This document shows positions 1,836 to 7,486 of a DNA stretch of 11,104 bases, piece by piece. Where the stretch lies: the NCBI GenBank assembly GCA_020849935.1, contig JADZFJ010000108.1, forward strand, positions 1 to 11,104. The letters are read 5' to 3'. Each line of letters opens with the position of its first letter. The stretch's first letter is position 1. A program made the translations under genes and the position numbers. The notes below the pieces were generated by a model. That model saw only the letters and a program-made list of their open reading frames with translations. It ran no database searches and had not been told where the DNA came from. Source of the stretch: Crocinitomix sp. Its GTDB lineage: Bacteria > Bacteroidota > Bacteroidia > Flavobacteriales_D > Crocinitomicaceae.

Positions 1836-2243
1836 CTATTTCGCCTTCATTTTATTGCCTTTTGGATCGTGGGTAACTTCGGCTAATCCGAGTGCTTCCA
1901 TTAATGGTGGGATATACATTCCAACTCTTCCGCGAAGTCCTTTTTTGAGGCCATACCAACCGCCGGCAGGGTTGTTTTCAGCACGACCCCAAGCTTCAAT
2001 AGTTCCTTCTTTAGCAGGTTTTTGTTCGTCTGCGCTACCGAGTTCCATCCAATCGCCATGTTTTTTTAGCATTTGGTGGAGATCGTCAAGGATGTTGATA
2101 TTGTAATGTAAAACGGTTTTACCAACGGTACACACCAAAATGTCATTTCCATCTTTTTGATCGACATGCATAGTGTATTCGCTTGTGAGTGGCGGTGTTT
2201 TTAAGACCATTGGTTTTTCTTTTGTTCCGATTGAATGTGCCAT
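1836..2243 (-). CDS. Small conserved protein of unknown function (DUF6855-like), last gene of the sigma operon
   Basis: This soluble protein of 135 residues has no signal peptide or membrane segment. Its C-terminal half carries a dense run of features typical of a conserved small domain: HGDWMELGSADEQKP (62-76), TIEAWGRAENNPAGGWYGLK (81-100) and GLRGRVGMYIPPLMEALGLA (102-121). I recall this pattern as DUF6855 in Bacteroidota and Actinobacteria, but the number is from memory. No biochemical role is known to me. The many Trp and Gly residues and the GWYGLKKGLRGR stretch suggest a nucleic-acid- or ligand-binding fold, which is a guess. It starts 11 bases after the SRPBCC gene stops, so both are almost certainly co-transcribed with the ECF sigma gene. 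Confidence 0.8.
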   Translation of the reverse strand: MAHSIGTKEKPMVLKTPPLTSEYTMHVDQKDGNDILVCTVGKTVLHYNINILDDLHQMLKKHGDWMELGSADEQKPAKEGTIEAWGRAENNPAGGWYGLKKGLRGRVGMYIPPLMEALGLAEVTHDPKGNKMKAK

Positions 2244-2254
2244 ATTTTTTGGTT

Positions 2255-2722
2255 TTATTTTGTAGATGAAATTGTTTCTGCTTCGTTTTTTAAATCTGCT
2301 GCATAAGCTTCGAATGATTGGTCGAAAGGAGGAATCATTTTGGCGAATAGTGGAAAAAGTGGTCCCCCAATTTTTTCGACCATGGTAAAGTTGGTTAAAT
2401 TGTTACCTATTGATTTTAAGGTGTAAACGCGTTTACCCATGGCATCGCCCCAAACCAAACGTTGGTCGGCTTCAAATTCTTTTACTTTTAATTTAAATTC
2501 TCGTTTAGGATCGAGTGTTGATTTGAGTTTTATTTTTTCGCCTAAAGCGATGTTGCCGTCGATTGATACGACGGTTGAATTCCACCGAGGAAAATCGTTT
2601 GCATTGGTTAATAATGCCCAAATAATACTTTTATCGGCTTGGATGTCGATGCTTACAGCAGTTTCACGACTAAAGGTTTTTTTTGTAGTGACTGCGCTAC
2701 CTGTTGATGCTATTGTTGTCAT
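2255..2722 (-). CDS. SRPBCC (START/polyketide-cyclase-like) ligand-binding protein
   Basis: The 155-residue protein fits the SRPBCC superfamily, probably Pfam Polyketide_cyc2. The N-terminal strand TAVSIDIQADKSIIWALLTN (21-40) followed by NDFPRWNSTVVSI (42-54) is the usual beta1-alpha1 signature with its 'fp.Wn..v' motif. GEKIKLKS (61-68), a strand ending RLVWGD (88-93), a TMVEKIGGPLFPLF segment (113-126) and a long C-terminal helix (133-150) complete the helix-grip fold. These proteins bind hydrophobic ligands in a central cavity and few are enzymes. The ligand cannot be read from sequence. There is no signal peptide, so it should be cytosolic. It sits 58 bp after the ECF sigma gene and 11 bp before the DUF6855-like gene. 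It may be a sensor or effector of the sigma operon, which is inference. Confidence 0.88.
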   Translation of the reverse strand: MTTIASTGSAVTTKKTFSRETAVSIDIQADKSIIWALLTNANDFPRWNSTVVSIDGNIALGEKIKLKSTLDPKREFKLKVKEFEADQRLVWGDAMGKRVYTLKSIGNNLTNFTMVEKIGGPLFPLFAKMIPPFDQSFEAYAADLKNEAETISSTK

Positions 2723-2780
2723 TTTATCTTGTTTTTTGTGTTGATATTATTTGGACGATTGACCAGTATAAAATGATAGG

Positions 2781-3584
2781 TTATTTTTCATTTTTTTCAG
2801 AATAATTTTCCATTACATCTCTATTGTGTTGAATATGATGTAATTGCAAGTCTGAACCATTTGAATTAAATGGATCGATTTCTTTCATTATTTGAAATCG
2901 TAAGTCTAAAAGTTGTTCTCGGTTTGGGTCATTTGCCTTTTTGGCGAAATCAATTTTATTTTTTTCAACTTCAAAATCTTGCTTTGGATTAAAGATTCCA
3001 TTGAGTTCGGAACATTGATGACAGGTGCCATTTTTGTTGATTAAGGCACACCGACCTTCAAAAACATTCACCATTTTAGATCGACTGGTGTGCAGGTAAT
3101 ATTTAACCATTGCCTCGCTTGTTTGCAGAATTTCGACAATTTCTGCCACTTTAAATTCGTACACTTCTTTTAATAAAATGCAGATTTGTTGCTCGAGTGG
3201 CAGCGATTTTGAAATGCAGGTAAGGCAAAAGGTGATATGTTCTTTGATTTCAAAATTTCCATGTTGCGAAGTTTGATTAATGGCCATTACTTCAGGAAAA
3301 TAATTTGGATTGGAAAGGGCTTTTGCTTTGCAGATATCAGTGACATTTTCTGTCCAACGTTTTTTGGCTCTTAAATTGTCCTTGGTAAGGTTAGATGCAA
3401 TGGTAAAAATCCAGGTTTTCACCGTACTTTCTGCTCTAAATGTGTCCAATTTAGTGGAGGCTTTTATAAAGGTGTCTTGAACCAGATCTTCGGTATCTTC
3501 AATACTTGCTGTGATTCGTAATAAGTAGGATTTCAAGTGAGGCCTTGCACTTTCAAATTCTGAAGTAAATTGTTCTTTTGTCAT
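2781..3584 (-). CDS. ECF-family RNA polymerase sigma factor with cysteine-containing C-terminal extension
   Basis: Sigma-70 region 2 spans about residues 13-75, with the core-binding LVQDTFIKA (34-42) and the -10-recognition helix TWIFTIASNLTKDNLR (57-72). Region 4, the -35-binding helix-turn-helix, spans about 126-173 (LPLEQQICILLKEVYEFKVA and following, with VKYYLHTSRSKMVN at 160-173). Total length is 267 residues, against about 160-200 for a typical ECF factor. The extra residues are an inter-domain linker with FCLTC (119-123) and a tail of about 90 residues with C179, C188 and C191 (GTCHQC), followed by FNPKQDFE. Tails of this kind often regulate ECF activity in place of a membrane anti-sigma factor, and no anti-sigma gene is visible nearby. 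The cysteine pairs could bind zinc or sense redox or metals. It heads the operon with the SRPBCC and DUF6855-like genes. Confidence 0.92.
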   Translation of the reverse strand: MTKEQFTSEFESARPHLKSYLLRITASIEDTEDLVQDTFIKASTKLDTFRAESTVKTWIFTIASNLTKDNLRAKKRWTENVTDICKAKALSNPNYFPEVMAINQTSQHGNFEIKEHITFCLTCISKSLPLEQQICILLKEVYEFKVAEIVEILQTSEAMVKYYLHTSRSKMVNVFEGRCALINKNGTCHQCSELNGIFNPKQDFEVEKNKIDFAKKANDPNREQLLDLRFQIMKEIDPFNSNGSDLQLHHIQHNRDVMENYSEKNEK

Positions 3585-3670: not shown

Positions 3671-3835
3671 ATTTGGCAAGGAGTTGCAAAAGGGATGCAG
3701 CGGAGCTCTTTTTTGAAAAAAAAAGCGGGAGTGGAAGCCCGACCCCGACGATCCCGACTGAAACGTCAGGATGTCGGGGTTTACAACCCAGGCGATTCTG
3801 ACTGAAAGGGAGGGATTGTTGGGGATTTGCCCAAG
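3671..3835 (+). repeat. Structured intergenic element, copy 1
   Basis: The spacer between the sigma gene and the MNIO gene is GC-richer than its surroundings and highly structured. On the plus strand TTGGCAA (3673-3679) can pair with TTGCCCAA (3827-3834) with one bulge, closing the unit. Inside lie GGGATGCAGCGGAGCTC (3692-3708), CTTTTTT pairing with AAAAAAG (3708-3725), the core GTGGAAGCCCG (3731-3741) and a long hairpin (3742-3780). The core recurs as GTGGATAGCCCG in copy 2 at 7731-7830, which also ends in GCCCAA. I recognise this layout (G.GAGGG, AGCGGA, GTGGATAGCCCGAC, hairpin, CGCCCAA) from flavobacterial spacers. It may correspond to Rfam Flavo-1, which I could not test. Copy 1 is read antisense to both flanking genes. 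Confidence 0.6.
3716..3780 (-). terminator. Possible Rho-independent terminator of the MNIO operon inside element copy 1
   Basis: Read on the minus strand, downstream of the MNIO stop at 3886, there is a strong hairpin. ACCCCGAC (3742-3749) plus ATCCCGAC (3751-3758) pair with GTCAGGAT (3765-3772) and GTCGGGGT (3773-3780), with one G-U pair in minus-strand RNA and a one-base bulge. A small CGGG/CCCG hairpin (3726-3741) follows, then directly a run of nine T residues (3724-3716). That is a plausible intrinsic terminator, about 105-170 bases past the stop codon. Intrinsic terminators in Bacteroidota are poorly characterised, so the fold is clearer than the function. Confidence 0.4.
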
Positions 3836-3885: not shown

Positions 3886-5031
3886 TTACCATCCTTGTTT
3901 CCATTTTTGCGCTATTTTGAGGGCTGTTTCTAACATATACGCCGACCAATTTTCGATTTTCCAATCTGTACTGGCGAGGGAGGATTGTCGCAATTTTTCG
4001 TGTGCATCGGAATGATTTTTGGCCGTTTCGAGGATGAAGGAGAGTTCGGCTTGTTGTTGTGCTAATTCCTCATTTTGAGGAATTTCGAGGCTAAGTGAAG
4101 ATTTAATTTCGGGAAGAAATGTGTTGGAAATTTGGGGTGTATTTTTTTTGAGATATTGATGGATGATGTTTTGCATTCGGTCAAAATCGTGTTGAAATTG
4201 GATTTGTTGTTCGGATGTGTAAAGGGCTGTTCCTAATTGCTCCAGCACCACGAATTTTAAATTAGGGCAGCGATTAAGGCTAAGTTTTAAGAGTTCAAAA
4301 ACTTCATCGGGAACGGCATTGTCGTGGGTATCTCGGCGAATGTTGCGGGTTGGGTGCACGTCTGATGGTTCCCAGCTTCCGCCAGAAATGTGAATTTCAC
4401 GCACACGGTCGAGCGGGTAGGCTTTAATTAAGGTGTCAAAACTGAGCGAAAAATTCTGTAATTGGCAATAGAGGTTGTGCAAGTCGAGGATAATAAATCC
4501 ATTAATGGGTTCGATTAGTTTTGTGAGAAATTCGCCTTGCTGTTTGACTTCATCGAGGGTGTAGGCGAAGGCAATATTTTCAAGTCCTACGGGACATTGA
4601 CATGCGTCGTAAATTCTTACTAGTCGGTCGCGGCCAAGGGCTAAGGTTGATTGATTATAAGGCACACTAATCGGTGCACCTTTGTGAAAATCGGAACCTG
4701 TCATAAAGCCAAAATGTTCGGTGACATGGTCGAATTTAAAATGATTAGCCGTTTTTTTTAAGTGGCGTAACCAGTTGGTTTGATCCTCACTCCATTTGCC
4801 AGAAAAGATTGAAAAATAGACCCCGTGTCCGATAAGTCGGTTTGCTTGGCTGTAGGTTTTTAATAATTCGACAAACCAATCGGGGATGTTTTTGACTTTA
4901 AATAAGGTGTCAAAAGACCATTCGATGGCTTCTATTTTTTCCGAAGCAAACAGCGGCAAAGTTGCCTGTAACAAATGTTGATCTAAGTTACAAGCAACGG
5001 TTGAGTAAATTGTGGATTGACTGGTTTTCAT
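3886..5031 (-). CDS. MNIO (DUF692) family iron-dependent RiPP-modifying oxidase, 381 aa, with C-terminal extension
   Basis: This is a DUF692 (PF05114; MbnB/TglH/ChrH/BufB) TIM-barrel protein. These enzymes hold two or three iron ions and oxidise cysteine or other residues of a precursor peptide. Counting from the ATG at 5029-5031, expected metal-ligand and active-site motifs are all present: IEWSFD (36-41), IGHGVYFS (67-74), HVTEHFGF (102-109), LENIA (150-154), LDLHNLY (182-188), REIHISGG (211-218), RRDTHDN (232-238) and VLEQLG (262-267). The barrel ends near 290. About 90 further residues form a helical tail not found in classical members of about 270-300 residues. An ATG 13 codons upstream overlaps the preceding peptide gene. 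The chosen ATG overlaps that gene's TAA as TAATG, implying translational coupling. The substrate is almost certainly that peptide. Confidence 0.93.
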   Translation of the reverse strand: MKTSQSTIYSTVACNLDQHLLQATLPLFASEKIEAIEWSFDTLFKVKNIPDWFVELLKTYSQANRLIGHGVYFSIFSGKWSEDQTNWLRHLKKTANHFKFDHVTEHFGFMTGSDFHKGAPISVPYNQSTLALGRDRLVRIYDACQCPVGLENIAFAYTLDEVKQQGEFLTKLIEPINGFIILDLHNLYCQLQNFSLSFDTLIKAYPLDRVREIHISGGSWEPSDVHPTRNIRRDTHDNAVPDEVFELLKLSLNRCPNLKFVVLEQLGTALYTSEQQIQFQHDFDRMQNIIHQYLKKNTPQISNTFLPEIKSSLSLEIPQNEELAQQQAELSFILETAKNHSDAHEKLRQSSLASTDWKIENWSAYMLETALKIAQKWKQGW

Positions 5032-5213
5032 TAACCCATACCACAAGCCGGACAATCTTCGAAACCACATTGAGGTTTTGGATCACCGTCATCGGTTGGC
5101 TCTGCAGTTGTGCGGTCGATATTTTCTTTTTCACACGAAGTCGTGATTCCAGTCACGGCAGAAATTGCAATACTTAGTGTGATGGCTTGGAGTAATGTTT
5201 TTGGTAGTTTCAT
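5031..5213 (-). CDS. Candidate MNIO-modified RiPP precursor with lipoprotein-type leader, 60 aa
   Basis: The frame is open further upstream, but the ATG at 5211-5213 places a signal sequence at the N-terminus. Residues 1-27 are MKLPKT, a hydrophobic stretch (LLQAITLSIAISAVTGI), then TTSC, matching a relaxed Bacteroidota signal-peptidase-II lipobox with C27. CEKEN after it resembles the charged lipoprotein export signals of this phylum. A hydrophilic acidic spacer (28-48) follows, and the C-terminus is CGFEDCPACGMG with C49, C54 and C57 (CX4CX2C). Tight coupling to an MNIO enzyme and terminal cysteines next to Gly match the architecture of MNIO substrates such as bufferins and chryseobasin precursors. 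Expected modification: oxidation of one or more cysteines to thiooxazole-type heterocycles, by analogy. The exact product, export and metal-binding role are inference. No convincing promoter is visible in the 95-bp gap upstream. Confidence 0.8.
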   Translation of the reverse strand: MKLPKTLLQAITLSIAISAVTGITTSCEKENIDRTTAEPTDDGDPKPQCGFEDCPACGMG

Positions 5214-5308
5214 ACTTGAATTTAAATTTTTCAACCTTTGTTTATTGGATGATGAAGGTGGATGAAATTTGGTTGCATAGCTAATAAAATAAATGATGGA
5301 TTTAATAC

Positions 5309-5779
5309 TTACTTCCAATTTTTAAAAGGATGGGTGGTAAGATTTGCGTTGTAATATTTTGGTTCGGAGGTCACTTCTTTGCCAACCCAAAGGGGTAATT
5401 CAAACGTTTCATCTTCACTATTTAGTTCGATTTCGGCCACCCATAAGCCAGCATTATCGCCTAAAAATTCATCTACTTCCCAGATGTTGCCTTTAAAATT
5501 TAGCGTATATCGGATTTTAGAAAGTTCTGAACTAGCAAAATTGTCAAGTAATTCGGTTGCTTCTTGAAGTGGAATTTCATATTCATATTCGGTCCTAGTT
5601 GCCCCAATAGTGATTCCTTTAATGGTTAAAAATCCTTGTGTTGGGGTTTGGCGTATCCGAATGGTTTTATGTTGATCTGTCAGCAAATACCCTTGCCGAT
5701 AAAGTTCGCCCGCAGGCTTTTCTTGTTGATTCCATTGATTTTGGTCAACTAAAAATTTTCGTTCGATTTCTTGTGCCAT
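5309..5779 (-). CDS. CYTH-domain protein (inorganic triphosphatase / class IV adenylate cyclase-like)
   Basis: The ATG at 5777-5779 is chosen because AAGGAG lies nine bases before it and the CYTH signature follows at once; an upstream start would add 16 unrelated residues. The 156-residue protein has the ExExK motif EIERK (4-8), basic RIR (41-43), TIKG (52-55), RTEYEYEI (62-69), KIR (88-90), EVDEF (101-105) and AEIEL (115-119). These line the CYTH tunnel and bind triphosphate and divalent metal. Short stand-alone bacterial CYTH proteins of this type are usually tripolyphosphatases rather than cyclases, but the substrate cannot be fixed from sequence. It lies 95 bp upstream of the RiPP precursor gene on the same strand, so shared transcription is possible without implying shared function. 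Confidence 0.9.
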   Translation of the reverse strand: MAQEIERKFLVDQNQWNQQEKPAGELYRQGYLLTDQHKTIRIRQTPTQGFLTIKGITIGATRTEYEYEIPLQEATELLDNFASSELSKIRYTLNFKGNIWEVDEFLGDNAGLWVAEIELNSEDETFELPLWVGKEVTSEPKYYNANLTTHPFKNWK

Positions 5780-5794
5780 AGTAATTTTCTCCTT
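5780..5794 (-). promoter_or_regulatory. Ribosome binding site that sets the CYTH start
   Basis: On the minus strand AAGGAGAAAATTACT precedes the ATG at 5777-5779. AGGAG with nine bases of spacing is a good Shine-Dalgarno match, unusual in this AT-rich Bacteroidota DNA. It argues for the internal start over the ATG 48 bases upstream. Confidence 0.6.
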
Positions 5795-5869
5795 TTGCAG
5801 ACAATCAAAGAGTACGAATTTATCCAAATTTCTTTGGAATTTAATGGTAGATGTTAATTCGATTGGAGT

Positions 5870-6469
5870 TTAATTTTTTTTGGTGTCCACCAACTCCAAT
5901 TTGGTAATAGAAGGGAGGTAAGCTTCAACTAACTCATATTCGCCCTCGCAGCAAGGGAAGGAGGTGATTTTCCAATTCCAATAAACTTTAAAGGTTTTGT
6001 TGAGGTAGGTTGGATTGTCGGCAAAATCTGTTTCGTCAAAAAGTTTGAAGGGTTCATACTTATTTTCACCAAATCCAAAATCGTAATTGTTGCCTTTTTC
6101 ATCCTCAAAATTTAAGTGGAAATAGTCACCAAAATCGCAGCCTTGGTAGGTGGCTATTAGGGGACTTTTAACATCTTCCCATTGCTCTTTTGTGTATTCA
6201 ATTTGTGCTCTTAATGCCGTGGAAGAGCGGTCTTTTTTCTTCACAATAAAGTCGTCAATTTTCCAATTTGATACAGAGATTAATTCTTCAGTTTTTTGTT
6301 CAAGCGCTGAACTATCAGTTAAAATTTCACTCAACAATTCGGAACTGTCGGTTTTTTTTTCATCGCTGACAGGAAAAGTTTCTTCTGTTTTTTGGTCGAT
6401 ATTTCCATTGTTCTGACAAGCTAAGGAAAACATCAAAATTATTAAGAGGAGTGATTTTATTTTGTGCAT
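5870..6469 (-). CDS. Lipoprotein of unknown function, 199 aa
   Basis: The N-terminus MHKIKSLLLIILMFSLAC is a clear lipoprotein signal with lipobox SLAC and lipidated Cys at residue 18. Residues 20-65 are a low-complexity linker rich in Ser, Glu, Asp and Thr containing two imperfect repeats: QKTEE at 26-30 and 58-62, each followed by a VS, and TDSSEL/TDSSAL between them. A globular domain follows, with NWKIDDFIVKKK, TYQGCDFGDYFHLNF, a glycine-rich FGFGENKYEPF and a pair of cysteines in TSFPCCEGEYEL. I do not recognise the family. It should be anchored in the periplasmic or outer-membrane leaflet. It is followed by the CYTH gene after about 90 bp and preceded by a gap holding a strong inverted repeat. 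Confidence 0.75.
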   Translation of the reverse strand: MHKIKSLLLIILMFSLACQNNGNIDQKTEETFPVSDEKKTDSSELLSEILTDSSALEQKTEELISVSNWKIDDFIVKKKDRSSTALRAQIEYTKEQWEDVKSPLIATYQGCDFGDYFHLNFEDEKGNNYDFGFGENKYEPFKLFDETDFADNPTYLNKTFKVYWNWKITSFPCCEGEYELVEAYLPSITKLELVDTKKN

Positions 6470-6516
6470 TTTTTGATTTATATAATTCGTTAATTTTTTA
6501 ACCTATGGTTTTGTCG

Positions 6517-6564
6517 CTACAGCTCGAAACGATTGACTTCTTCGAACTTTGTTTCGAGCGGTAG
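6517..6564. repeat. Strong 14-bp imperfect inverted repeat (hairpin)
   Basis: CTACaGCTCGAAAC (6517-6530) pairs with GTTTCGAGCgGTAG (6551-6564): thirteen of fourteen pairs, around a 20-base loop that itself contains the palindrome TTCGAA (6541-6546). It lies 20 bases past the stop of the 300-residue gene and about 50 bases before the lipoprotein start. It could act as an mRNA 3' end or processing hairpin. No T run follows directly on either strand, so it is not a textbook intrinsic terminator. Confidence 0.6.
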
Positions 6565-6583
6565 AGTGGGATTTAATAGCTGA

Positions 6584-7486
6584 TCATGTATTGTGTATTG
6601 AATTTTCCTGATCCCACTTAGTCCAAACCATTCGATTGCCGGTCTCAATTGATATTTCGGCAAGTTTTAACAATGCTGTTACTATGTATGTGTATTCATA
6701 TCCTCTCAAAACAGACAAAAGTCCATAGGAAACAATAAATTCTAAATCTTCATCTGTGTCGTAATCGAAGGGTTTAAGCTTTAATCCACAAATAACACTT
6801 TTACCTGTTTCTTTATCGATGAACTCGCATTTGTGTACAGGTACATCTCCTACTTTCAAGGGTTGGTTTTCTAAAATAGTTCTTTGGGTGAATTCGCTTG
6901 ATCGAAAAATTGAATAAAAAGATGTTCCACGATCTTCGGAAATGTTAAAACCAAATTGACCTAAGGAACAACCATATTTTCCATCTAGGGATTGTTGAAT
7001 CAAAATTGATCCCATGGTATAATAATCGCTCAAGATATCGGTATTTATTATATTGATGCCTTTTGATTTTTCATTTAAAAAAACCATTTTCTCATATTCA
7101 GGTTCAAAATCACTAGGGTCAAGTTCCTCTAATATTGCTTTTGCATGATCAATAGGAAACATGCCTTCGTGTGTTCGAGGTGCATATTTTGTAGTTATCG
7201 GTAGCTGCTCGTGCCAAAATTGAAAATACTCAATCATTGAATCCACACCGAAATCATCGAGGTATTCATAAGCTATTTTCATGAACGGATGCTCACATGC
7301 TGTTTCCTTCCAATTGTAAAAGTCCTCCTCTATTTTATCCCTGAGTGTTTTATCATTTATTAAAAGTAATTGTTGGAAATCAAGAGATACTCGTTCTTCA
7401 ACAATGCGCACAAACTCCTTCTTTGGTGGATCAGAGGTCATTCCATTTTTGTAGCAATTGCAGTTAACATATACTAAATAACCCAT
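6584..7486 (-). CDS. Uncharacterised soluble protein, 300 aa
   Basis: I do not recognise the family. The ATG at 7484-7486 opens a frame with no signal peptide or membrane helix. The N-terminus MGYLVYVNCNCYKNG has two close cysteines (C9, C11), but the hydrophobicity is too short for export. Residues 25-130 look helical and acidic (RIVEERVSLDFQQLL, KIEEDFYNWKETACEHPFMK). Residues 140-235 look beta-rich, and the C-terminus (245-285) has two probable helices around SYGLLSVLRGYEYTYIVTALLKLAEISI. C64, H66, C173, C220 and C233 are further potential ligands without a clear motif. It is transcribed away from the T9SS protein and ends before the hairpin at 6517-6564. Isolated genes of this kind are often accessory in Bacteroidota. 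Confidence 0.75.
   Translation of the reverse strand: MGYLVYVNCNCYKNGMTSDPPKKEFVRIVEERVSLDFQQLLLINDKTLRDKIEEDFYNWKETACEHPFMKIAYEYLDDFGVDSMIEYFQFWHEQLPITTKYAPRTHEGMFPIDHAKAILEELDPSDFEPEYEKMVFLNEKSKGINIINTDILSDYYTMGSILIQQSLDGKYGCSLGQFGFNISEDRGTSFYSIFRSSEFTQRTILENQPLKVGDVPVHKCEFIDKETGKSVICGLKLKPFDYDTDEDLEFIVSYGLLSVLRGYEYTYIVTALLKLAEISIETGNRMVWTKWDQENSIHNT

Follow-up and report, generated by a model that had tools for sequence, protein, structure and literature searches.

A two-gene MNIO cassette of probable DybA/DybH type in Crocinitomix sp.

The gene pair and its precursor peptide

The window, that is, the whole stretch of DNA analyzed here, comprises 11,104 nucleotides of a contig from Crocinitomix sp. 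Two consecutive genes are located on its minus strand. The first one, an ORF spanning from nucleotides 5213 to 5031, encodes a 60-aa peptide that starts with MKLPKTLL and ends with QCGFEDCPACGMG. The second one, spanning from nucleotides 5031 to 3886, encodes a 381-aa MNIO (DUF692) enzyme with a C-terminal extension. The stop codon of the peptide gene and the ATG of the enzyme gene overlap by one base within a TAATG sequence (5029–5033). Both frames extend open upstream, and the starts chosen agree with those of relatives. The coordinates and the overlap that a previous sequence-only reading of this DNA had given are correct.

The peptide (5031–5213) was assigned to the RiPP precursors of the chryseobasin-related/DybA type by a family model and by homology. 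With 48.7 bits, it is above the cut-off of 40 of NCBIfam model NF050125, “chryseobasin-related MNIO class RiPP peptide”, and it fails NF050124, the ChrA model (14.1 bits; cut-off 50). Local identity is 35% to the peptide of locus L064, which corresponds to DybA, and 43% to the precursor of the Fluviicola locus L009. L064 is from Dyadobacter crusticola DSM 16708, and its peptide fits the numbering used for DybA in PMC12636315 (Met26/Asp27, A46 and a 13-residue LysC fragment). The window peptide contains four cysteines, Cys27, Cys49, Cys54 and Cys57. From the sequence and the alignment, residues 1–27 (5133–5213) are predicted to be a lipoprotein signal peptide, in which a hydrophobic stretch is followed by a lipobox-like TTSC; Cys27 would be the lipidation site. 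Directly at the stop codon, the peptide ends with CPACGMG (5034–5054), of the CPxCGxG type, which includes Cys54 and Cys57 and which, by homology to DybA (PMC12636315), is the expected site of a macrocycle and a hydantoin. The remaining cysteine, Cys49 (5067–5069), lies between signal and tail.

It had been proposed that the peptide carries a CX4CX2C core, and conservation of its three cysteines was analyzed in 97 precursors from 83 of 86 loci (window included), all of them selected by the search for having the tail pair. Cys54 and Cys57 are conserved, while Cys49 is absent or differently spaced in relatives. The third conserved cysteine is instead Cys27: a cysteine is found at residues 20–27, the place of the lipobox, in 95 of the 97 precursors, and in 65 of them there is no further cysteine between the lipobox and the tail. 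An extra cysteine located 3 to 6 residues ahead of the tail is present in the window peptide, in precursor P0002 and in five out of eight TTSCEK/SASCEK-type precursors of the Fluviicola clade, two of these five (from L006 and L015) being the same sequence. Its spacing varies from CX4C in the window to CX5C in P0002 and CX2C in the five Fluviicola-clade precursors (CEPCPACGMG), and two of the eight, L004 and L013, lack it. Because even close relatives misplace or lack this cysteine, and most precursors have none, Cys49 falls outside the conserved core. CX4CX2C was accordingly rejected as such, the conserved residues being Cys54 and Cys57 within CPACGMG plus the lipobox Cys27.

The sequence-only reading also considered the tail to be unlike that of chryseobasin, and suggested a distinct precursor class. 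CPACGMG is in fact the highly conserved C-terminus of chryseobasin precursors (PMC10214503), and it also ends the precursors of loci L089 and L090, whose enzymes score above the ChrH cut-off. As the tail is shared with both chryseobasin and DybA, a distinct class was rejected; the peptide passes NF050125, and the lipidated two-gene form has already been described as DybA/DybH in PMC12636315.

The enzyme and its pairing with tail-bearing precursors

The enzyme (3886–5031) was assigned to the ChrH/DybH subfamily of MNIOs, for which a C-terminal extension has been described (PMC12636315). It matches Pfam PF05114 with 103.8 bits (cut-off 25), and its best NCBIfam match is NF050165 (MNIO_ChrH), with 377.6 bits along residues 17–378, below the equivalog cut-off of 600. 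Scores with the BufB (84.4 bits; cut-off 310) and HvfB (71.1 bits; cut-off 360) models are both below that of ChrH. The enzyme can be aligned locally with 8hci and 3bww, two DUF692 proteins of solved structure. Residues H69, H106, E151, N152, D183, H185, N186, E212, H214, D234, H236, D237 and E264 are invariant in all 88 MNIOs aligned. Among these positions are presumably those that bind iron, a role carried over from other MNIOs. With the PF05114 match and these usual positions in place, the earlier identification of a DUF692 enzyme with the expected, putatively metal-binding motifs holds.

Identity of the window enzyme is 67.6% to that of Fluviicola locus L009, 58.6% over 377 aligned positions to that of L064 (DybH) and 40% to that of the ChrH-type locus L089. 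In a tree of the 88 enzymes, with a midpoint root used for drawing only, it is placed within a 10-row clade with Fluviicola, a member of the Crocinitomicaceae, and its kin (support 100/97), apart from the ChrH-type L089 and L090. The nearest enzymes in the tree are those of loci L004–L006, L009–L013 and L015, at most of which one precursor starts like that of the window and has the same kind of anchor (TTSCEK). These loci differ from the window in that seven of the nine carry two tandem precursors, whereas L005 and L009, like the window, have a single one. At four of the seven two-precursor loci (L004, L006, L010, L011, L012, L013 and L015), namely L006, L011, L012 and L015, the first precursor ends with CEPCPACGMG. 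Tandem arrangements are also seen in Taibaiella chishuiensis (L070:8987–9930), with three CPxCGxG precursors before one MNIO; one of them has no lipobox cysteine and, judging from its sequence, may use signal peptidase I.

At 83 of the 86 loci, window included, the MNIO is preceded by an ORF with a CPxCGxG tail, at a distance of no more than about 1.5 kb. Variant tails were read by eye at L080 (CGPCGMG) and L084 (CLSCGMG), upstream of MNIOs of the same subfamily, which raises the number of loci with a tail-bearing precursor to 85 and indicates that the proline after the first tail cysteine is not universal. At L024 there is an MNIO of the same subfamily but no CPxCGxG-stop in its 8055-base contig, which ends 246 bases past the match. 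The 86 loci are not all independent, as the enzymes of L006 and L015 are identical. With 83 of 86 loci showing such an ORF just upstream of the enzyme, the arrangement is not due to chance, and the window pair was confirmed to be real and correctly placed. Its initial recognition as a RiPP system made up of an MNIO and a lipoprotein-type precursor, with no further conserved gene, is borne out by the NF050125 match and by this conserved pairing.

The association was also apparent when whole genomes were searched. A ChrH-type match at E 1e-40 was obtained in six out of 395 genomes of the phylum, and an exact CPACGMG-stop in five (the window's own genome included in both cases). All five are among the six, a co-occurrence with P = 7.7e-11 if kinship is ignored, two of the five being of one genus. 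Co-occurrence of the pair in related genomes is thereby upheld, in line with the 85 tail-bearing loci. In the sixth genome (G097; L008), a split enzyme is preceded by an ORF ending with TGACGMG. This locus (G097:C41) encodes a 292-aa MNIO and a separate 85-aa ORF, its match starts 410 bases into the contig, and its TGACGMG lacks the first tail cysteine; split MNIOs of this kind have been described for Cyanobacteria (PMC12636315). The wider CPxCGxG pattern matches 57 of the 395 genomes, some of them without the enzyme, and part of these matches read tryptophan instead of a stop. The ChrH match is patchy: it occurs in five of 149 genomes (own genome and G097 included), and the eight further genomes from the genus of the window all lack it.

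As the seven-residue tail suffices for DybH, orphan tail-bearing proteins modified in trans were worth searching for. We searched the genomes of 50 out of the 80 loci with the pattern CP[A/G]CG, followed by ATG or CTG and then by GG. Matches to CP[A/G]CG[M/L]G-stop were found in 42 of the 50, and all 47 matches are at the MNIO locus; orphan substrates with such a tail were thus rejected for these genomes. The eight genomes with no match have variant tails or other leucine codons at their MNIO locus, and orphans of such kind are missed by the pattern. The window's own genome (68% complete) has a single CPxCGxG-stop match, the tail of the window peptide. The most widespread other neighbor family is found at 19 of 81 loci (proteins of at least 90 aa compared; at several loci the contig stops within the flank), and conserved neighbors thus offer no clue to function. 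As the tails matched in the 50 genomes are all at MNIO loci and no neighbor is commonly shared, the cassette looks like two genes standing alone.

The genes nearest to the cassette in the window encode a CYTH protein, a sigma factor, a protein weakly similar to Polyketide_cyc2 (below cut-off) and a DUF6855 protein. The ECF-type sigma factor, the protein with the weak Polyketide_cyc2 match and the DUF6855 protein are encoded in a row behind the cassette (1836–3584). None of the eight remaining genomes of the genus has a match to the sigma factor at E 1e-30, and the CYTH gene has a match, of 47%, in just one of them. The gap between the enzyme and sigma-factor genes contains two imperfect 31-base direct repeats (3742–3816), 74% identical and 44 bases apart.

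A second MNIO locus exists in the same genome (G000:C111, about 4754–6691; L002:990–2927). The peptide encoded there has 82 aa and carries two CPxCRSGFPG repeats that follow a stretch ending SIKGGG; the other products are a 297-aa MNIO, whose best NCBIfam model is BufB (158 of 310 bits), and a 245-aa protein without any family over cut-off. At E 1e-40, this MNIO has no match in the 147 other genomes searched.

Expected product and alternative readings

In Bacteroidota outside Chryseobacterium, clusters of this family consist minimally of a precursor and an MNIO, the precursors carrying a lipobox cysteine and CPxCGxG (PMC12636315). According to the same source, DybH of D. crusticola alone turns CPACGMG into a macrocycle plus a hydantoin, with a change of -4 Da; the seven-residue tail placed on GFP is sufficient for DybH, which tolerates changes inside the ring. 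DybA is triacylated on its lipobox cysteine, its modification is confined to the tail, and no new UV absorbance accompanies it (PMC12636315). The window pair resembles DybA/DybH in its two-gene layout, its lipobox-type cysteine, its CPACGMG, its C-terminally extended MNIO (58.6% identical) and the absence of a partner protein. It differs in that its precursor is only 35% identical and has an extra cysteine (Cys49) before the tail, where DybA has none, and in that its genes overlap by one base, those of L064 being 11 bases apart.

By this analogy, the window very probably contains a two-gene DAG-RiPP cassette of the DybA/DybH type, in which a cytosolic MNIO would oxidize the tail of a peptide that is later lipidated and anchored to the membrane. 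The enzyme would recognize the C-terminal CPACGMG of the precursor and, using O2 and a multi-iron centre, remove four hydrogens (a four-electron oxidation, -4 Da). A sulfur-linked ring would join Cys54 to the former beta-carbon of Cys57, and the Cys-Gly-Met backbone would rearrange to a hydantoin, leaving one free thiol; no partner protein would be needed. The modified peptide would then be exported, diacylglycerylated on Cys27 and cut by signal peptidase II, so that the end product would be a small lipopeptide, probably membrane-anchored. Both the chemistry and the lipidation are inferred from the characterized homologue DybA/DybH. Against this reading stand the enzyme score below the NF050165 equivalog cut-off, the lack of a counterpart of Cys49 in DybA and the one locus out of 86 (L024) with the enzyme and no tail-bearing ORF.

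The extra cysteine is the basis of an alternative that is partly compatible with a DybA/DybH-type cassette: Cys49 might also be oxidized, or it might pair with the free tail thiol in a disulfide or at a metal site, the product then being other than that of DybA. Such a cysteine recurs in P0002 and in the five Fluviicola-clade precursors, and DybH tolerates changes within the ring (PMC12636315). Its variable spacing, its absence from L004 and L013, and the 65 of 97 precursors that have the lipobox cysteine and no other cysteine before the tail argue against it, as does the restriction of the DybA modification to the tail (PMC12636315), though DybA has no such cysteine. We consider this alternative unlikely.

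A second alternative is that, like ChrH, the enzyme additionally uses SAM for S-methylation of the tail, with a +10 Da product as the result. The window shares with ChrA/ChrH the CPACGMG tail and the enzyme subfamily (PMC10214503), ChrA and ChrH yield a +10 Da product in E. coli also when ChrI is left out, and both the -4 Da and the +10 Da product are formed by ArlAH, the homologue from Archangium (PMC12636315). Chryseobasin is S-methylated, and its cluster holds chrI, chrE and chrP (PMC10214503); as counterparts of these genes, no match to DUF1772, epimerase or M42 peptidase turned up in the scanned proteins of the window. Unlike the window peptide, ChrA has a signal-peptidase-I signal and no lipobox cysteine (PMC12636315). 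Together with the scores against NF050165 (377.6 of 600) and NF050124 (14.1 of 50), this separates the window pair from the ChrA/ChrH equivalogs. For DybH, ChsH and HymH, the product obtained was that of -4 Da (PMC12636315), and the window enzyme is closer to the non-methylating DybH (58.6%) than to ChrH-type L089 (40%); in the tree, it is found on the other side from L089 and L090. S-methylation is thus very improbable here.

Lipidated bufferins and oxazolins are likewise MNIO RiPPs with lipoprotein signals, one of them, NedA, having been shown to be triacylated, but their cysteine motifs and chemistry are different, and the MNIO of NedA works with a partner protein (PMC12636315). That the window encodes a copper RiPP of this type, with thiooxazole or oxazolone-thioamide cysteines, can practically be dismissed, as, apart from the common enzyme superfamily and the lipoprotein signals of some members, the peptide has no EGKCG, no DUF2063 protein was found among the ten window proteins scanned, and the BufB and HvfB scores are far below both their own cut-offs and the ChrH score.

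The window pair hence adds one more well-formed but unexceptional member to the DybA/DybH group, a family already described in the 2025 preprint PMC12636315.

A histidine- and cysteine-containing motif in related precursors

The most interesting new observation concerns the relatives and not the window. A profile built from 19 precursors had 1403 matching proteins with E values of 10 or less; the best 120 of these 1403, five other proteins and the precursors of MNIO loci made up a sample of 212 distinct precursors, which leans towards the CX3C type because the profile query held that type. Within this biased sample, a CX3C lies between the lipobox and the tail in 103 of 212 precursors. A histidine is found four residues before the first cysteine in 84 of the 103, four residues after the second in 85, and at both places in 80; in 62 there is a glutamate midway between both cysteines. 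In the 109 precursors without CX3C, histidine accounts for 1.1% of the linker. In P0127 and others, the H-x3-C-x3-C-x3-H stretch located between lipobox and tail is typically HLKTCDENCDIDH. The window peptide does not have it. This type is seen at nine of the 86 loci (L017, L020, L028, L055, L058, L062, L077, L079 and L092), each time upstream of an MNIO of the same subfamily. When ten precursors were scanned, seven of them of the H-x3-C-x3-C-x3-H type, none had a Pfam match over cut-off and all passed NF050125.

A slightly looser form of the motif occurs at several places of the tree, among them the two branches that flank the midpoint root away from ChrH, so that the motif may be ancient and have been lost several times, not all of the forks there being well supported. 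The abstract, introduction, results and discussion of PMC12636315 make no mention of the motif; “Saprospira” and “Fluviicola” are absent from its main text, and “metal” appears only in the keywords and in the reference titles shown.

From its residues, the motif looks like a four-ligand metal site, and it may be comparable to the CuA loop, CxExCx3H. It is possible, though doubtful, that the DAG-RiPPs of this family are envelope-anchored binders of metal, perhaps copper, and that a large subgroup of them carries H-x3-C-x3-C-x3-H, often as C-x-E-x-C, after the lipid anchor and ahead of the modified, thiol-bearing tail, the extra cysteine of the window and of Fluviicola representing a reduced form. 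If this were true, one lipopeptide would offer two metal sites.

The analysis shows that, within its genus, a ChrH/DybH lipopeptide cassette is present in this one genome and missing from the eight others searched. It indicates that this cassette stands alone, with one enzyme, one tail, no common neighbor and, in the genomes searched, no tail found apart from the enzyme. The window alone gives no lead to metal binding; it is the H-x3-C-x3-C-x3-H motif of many of its relatives that provides one that can be tested.
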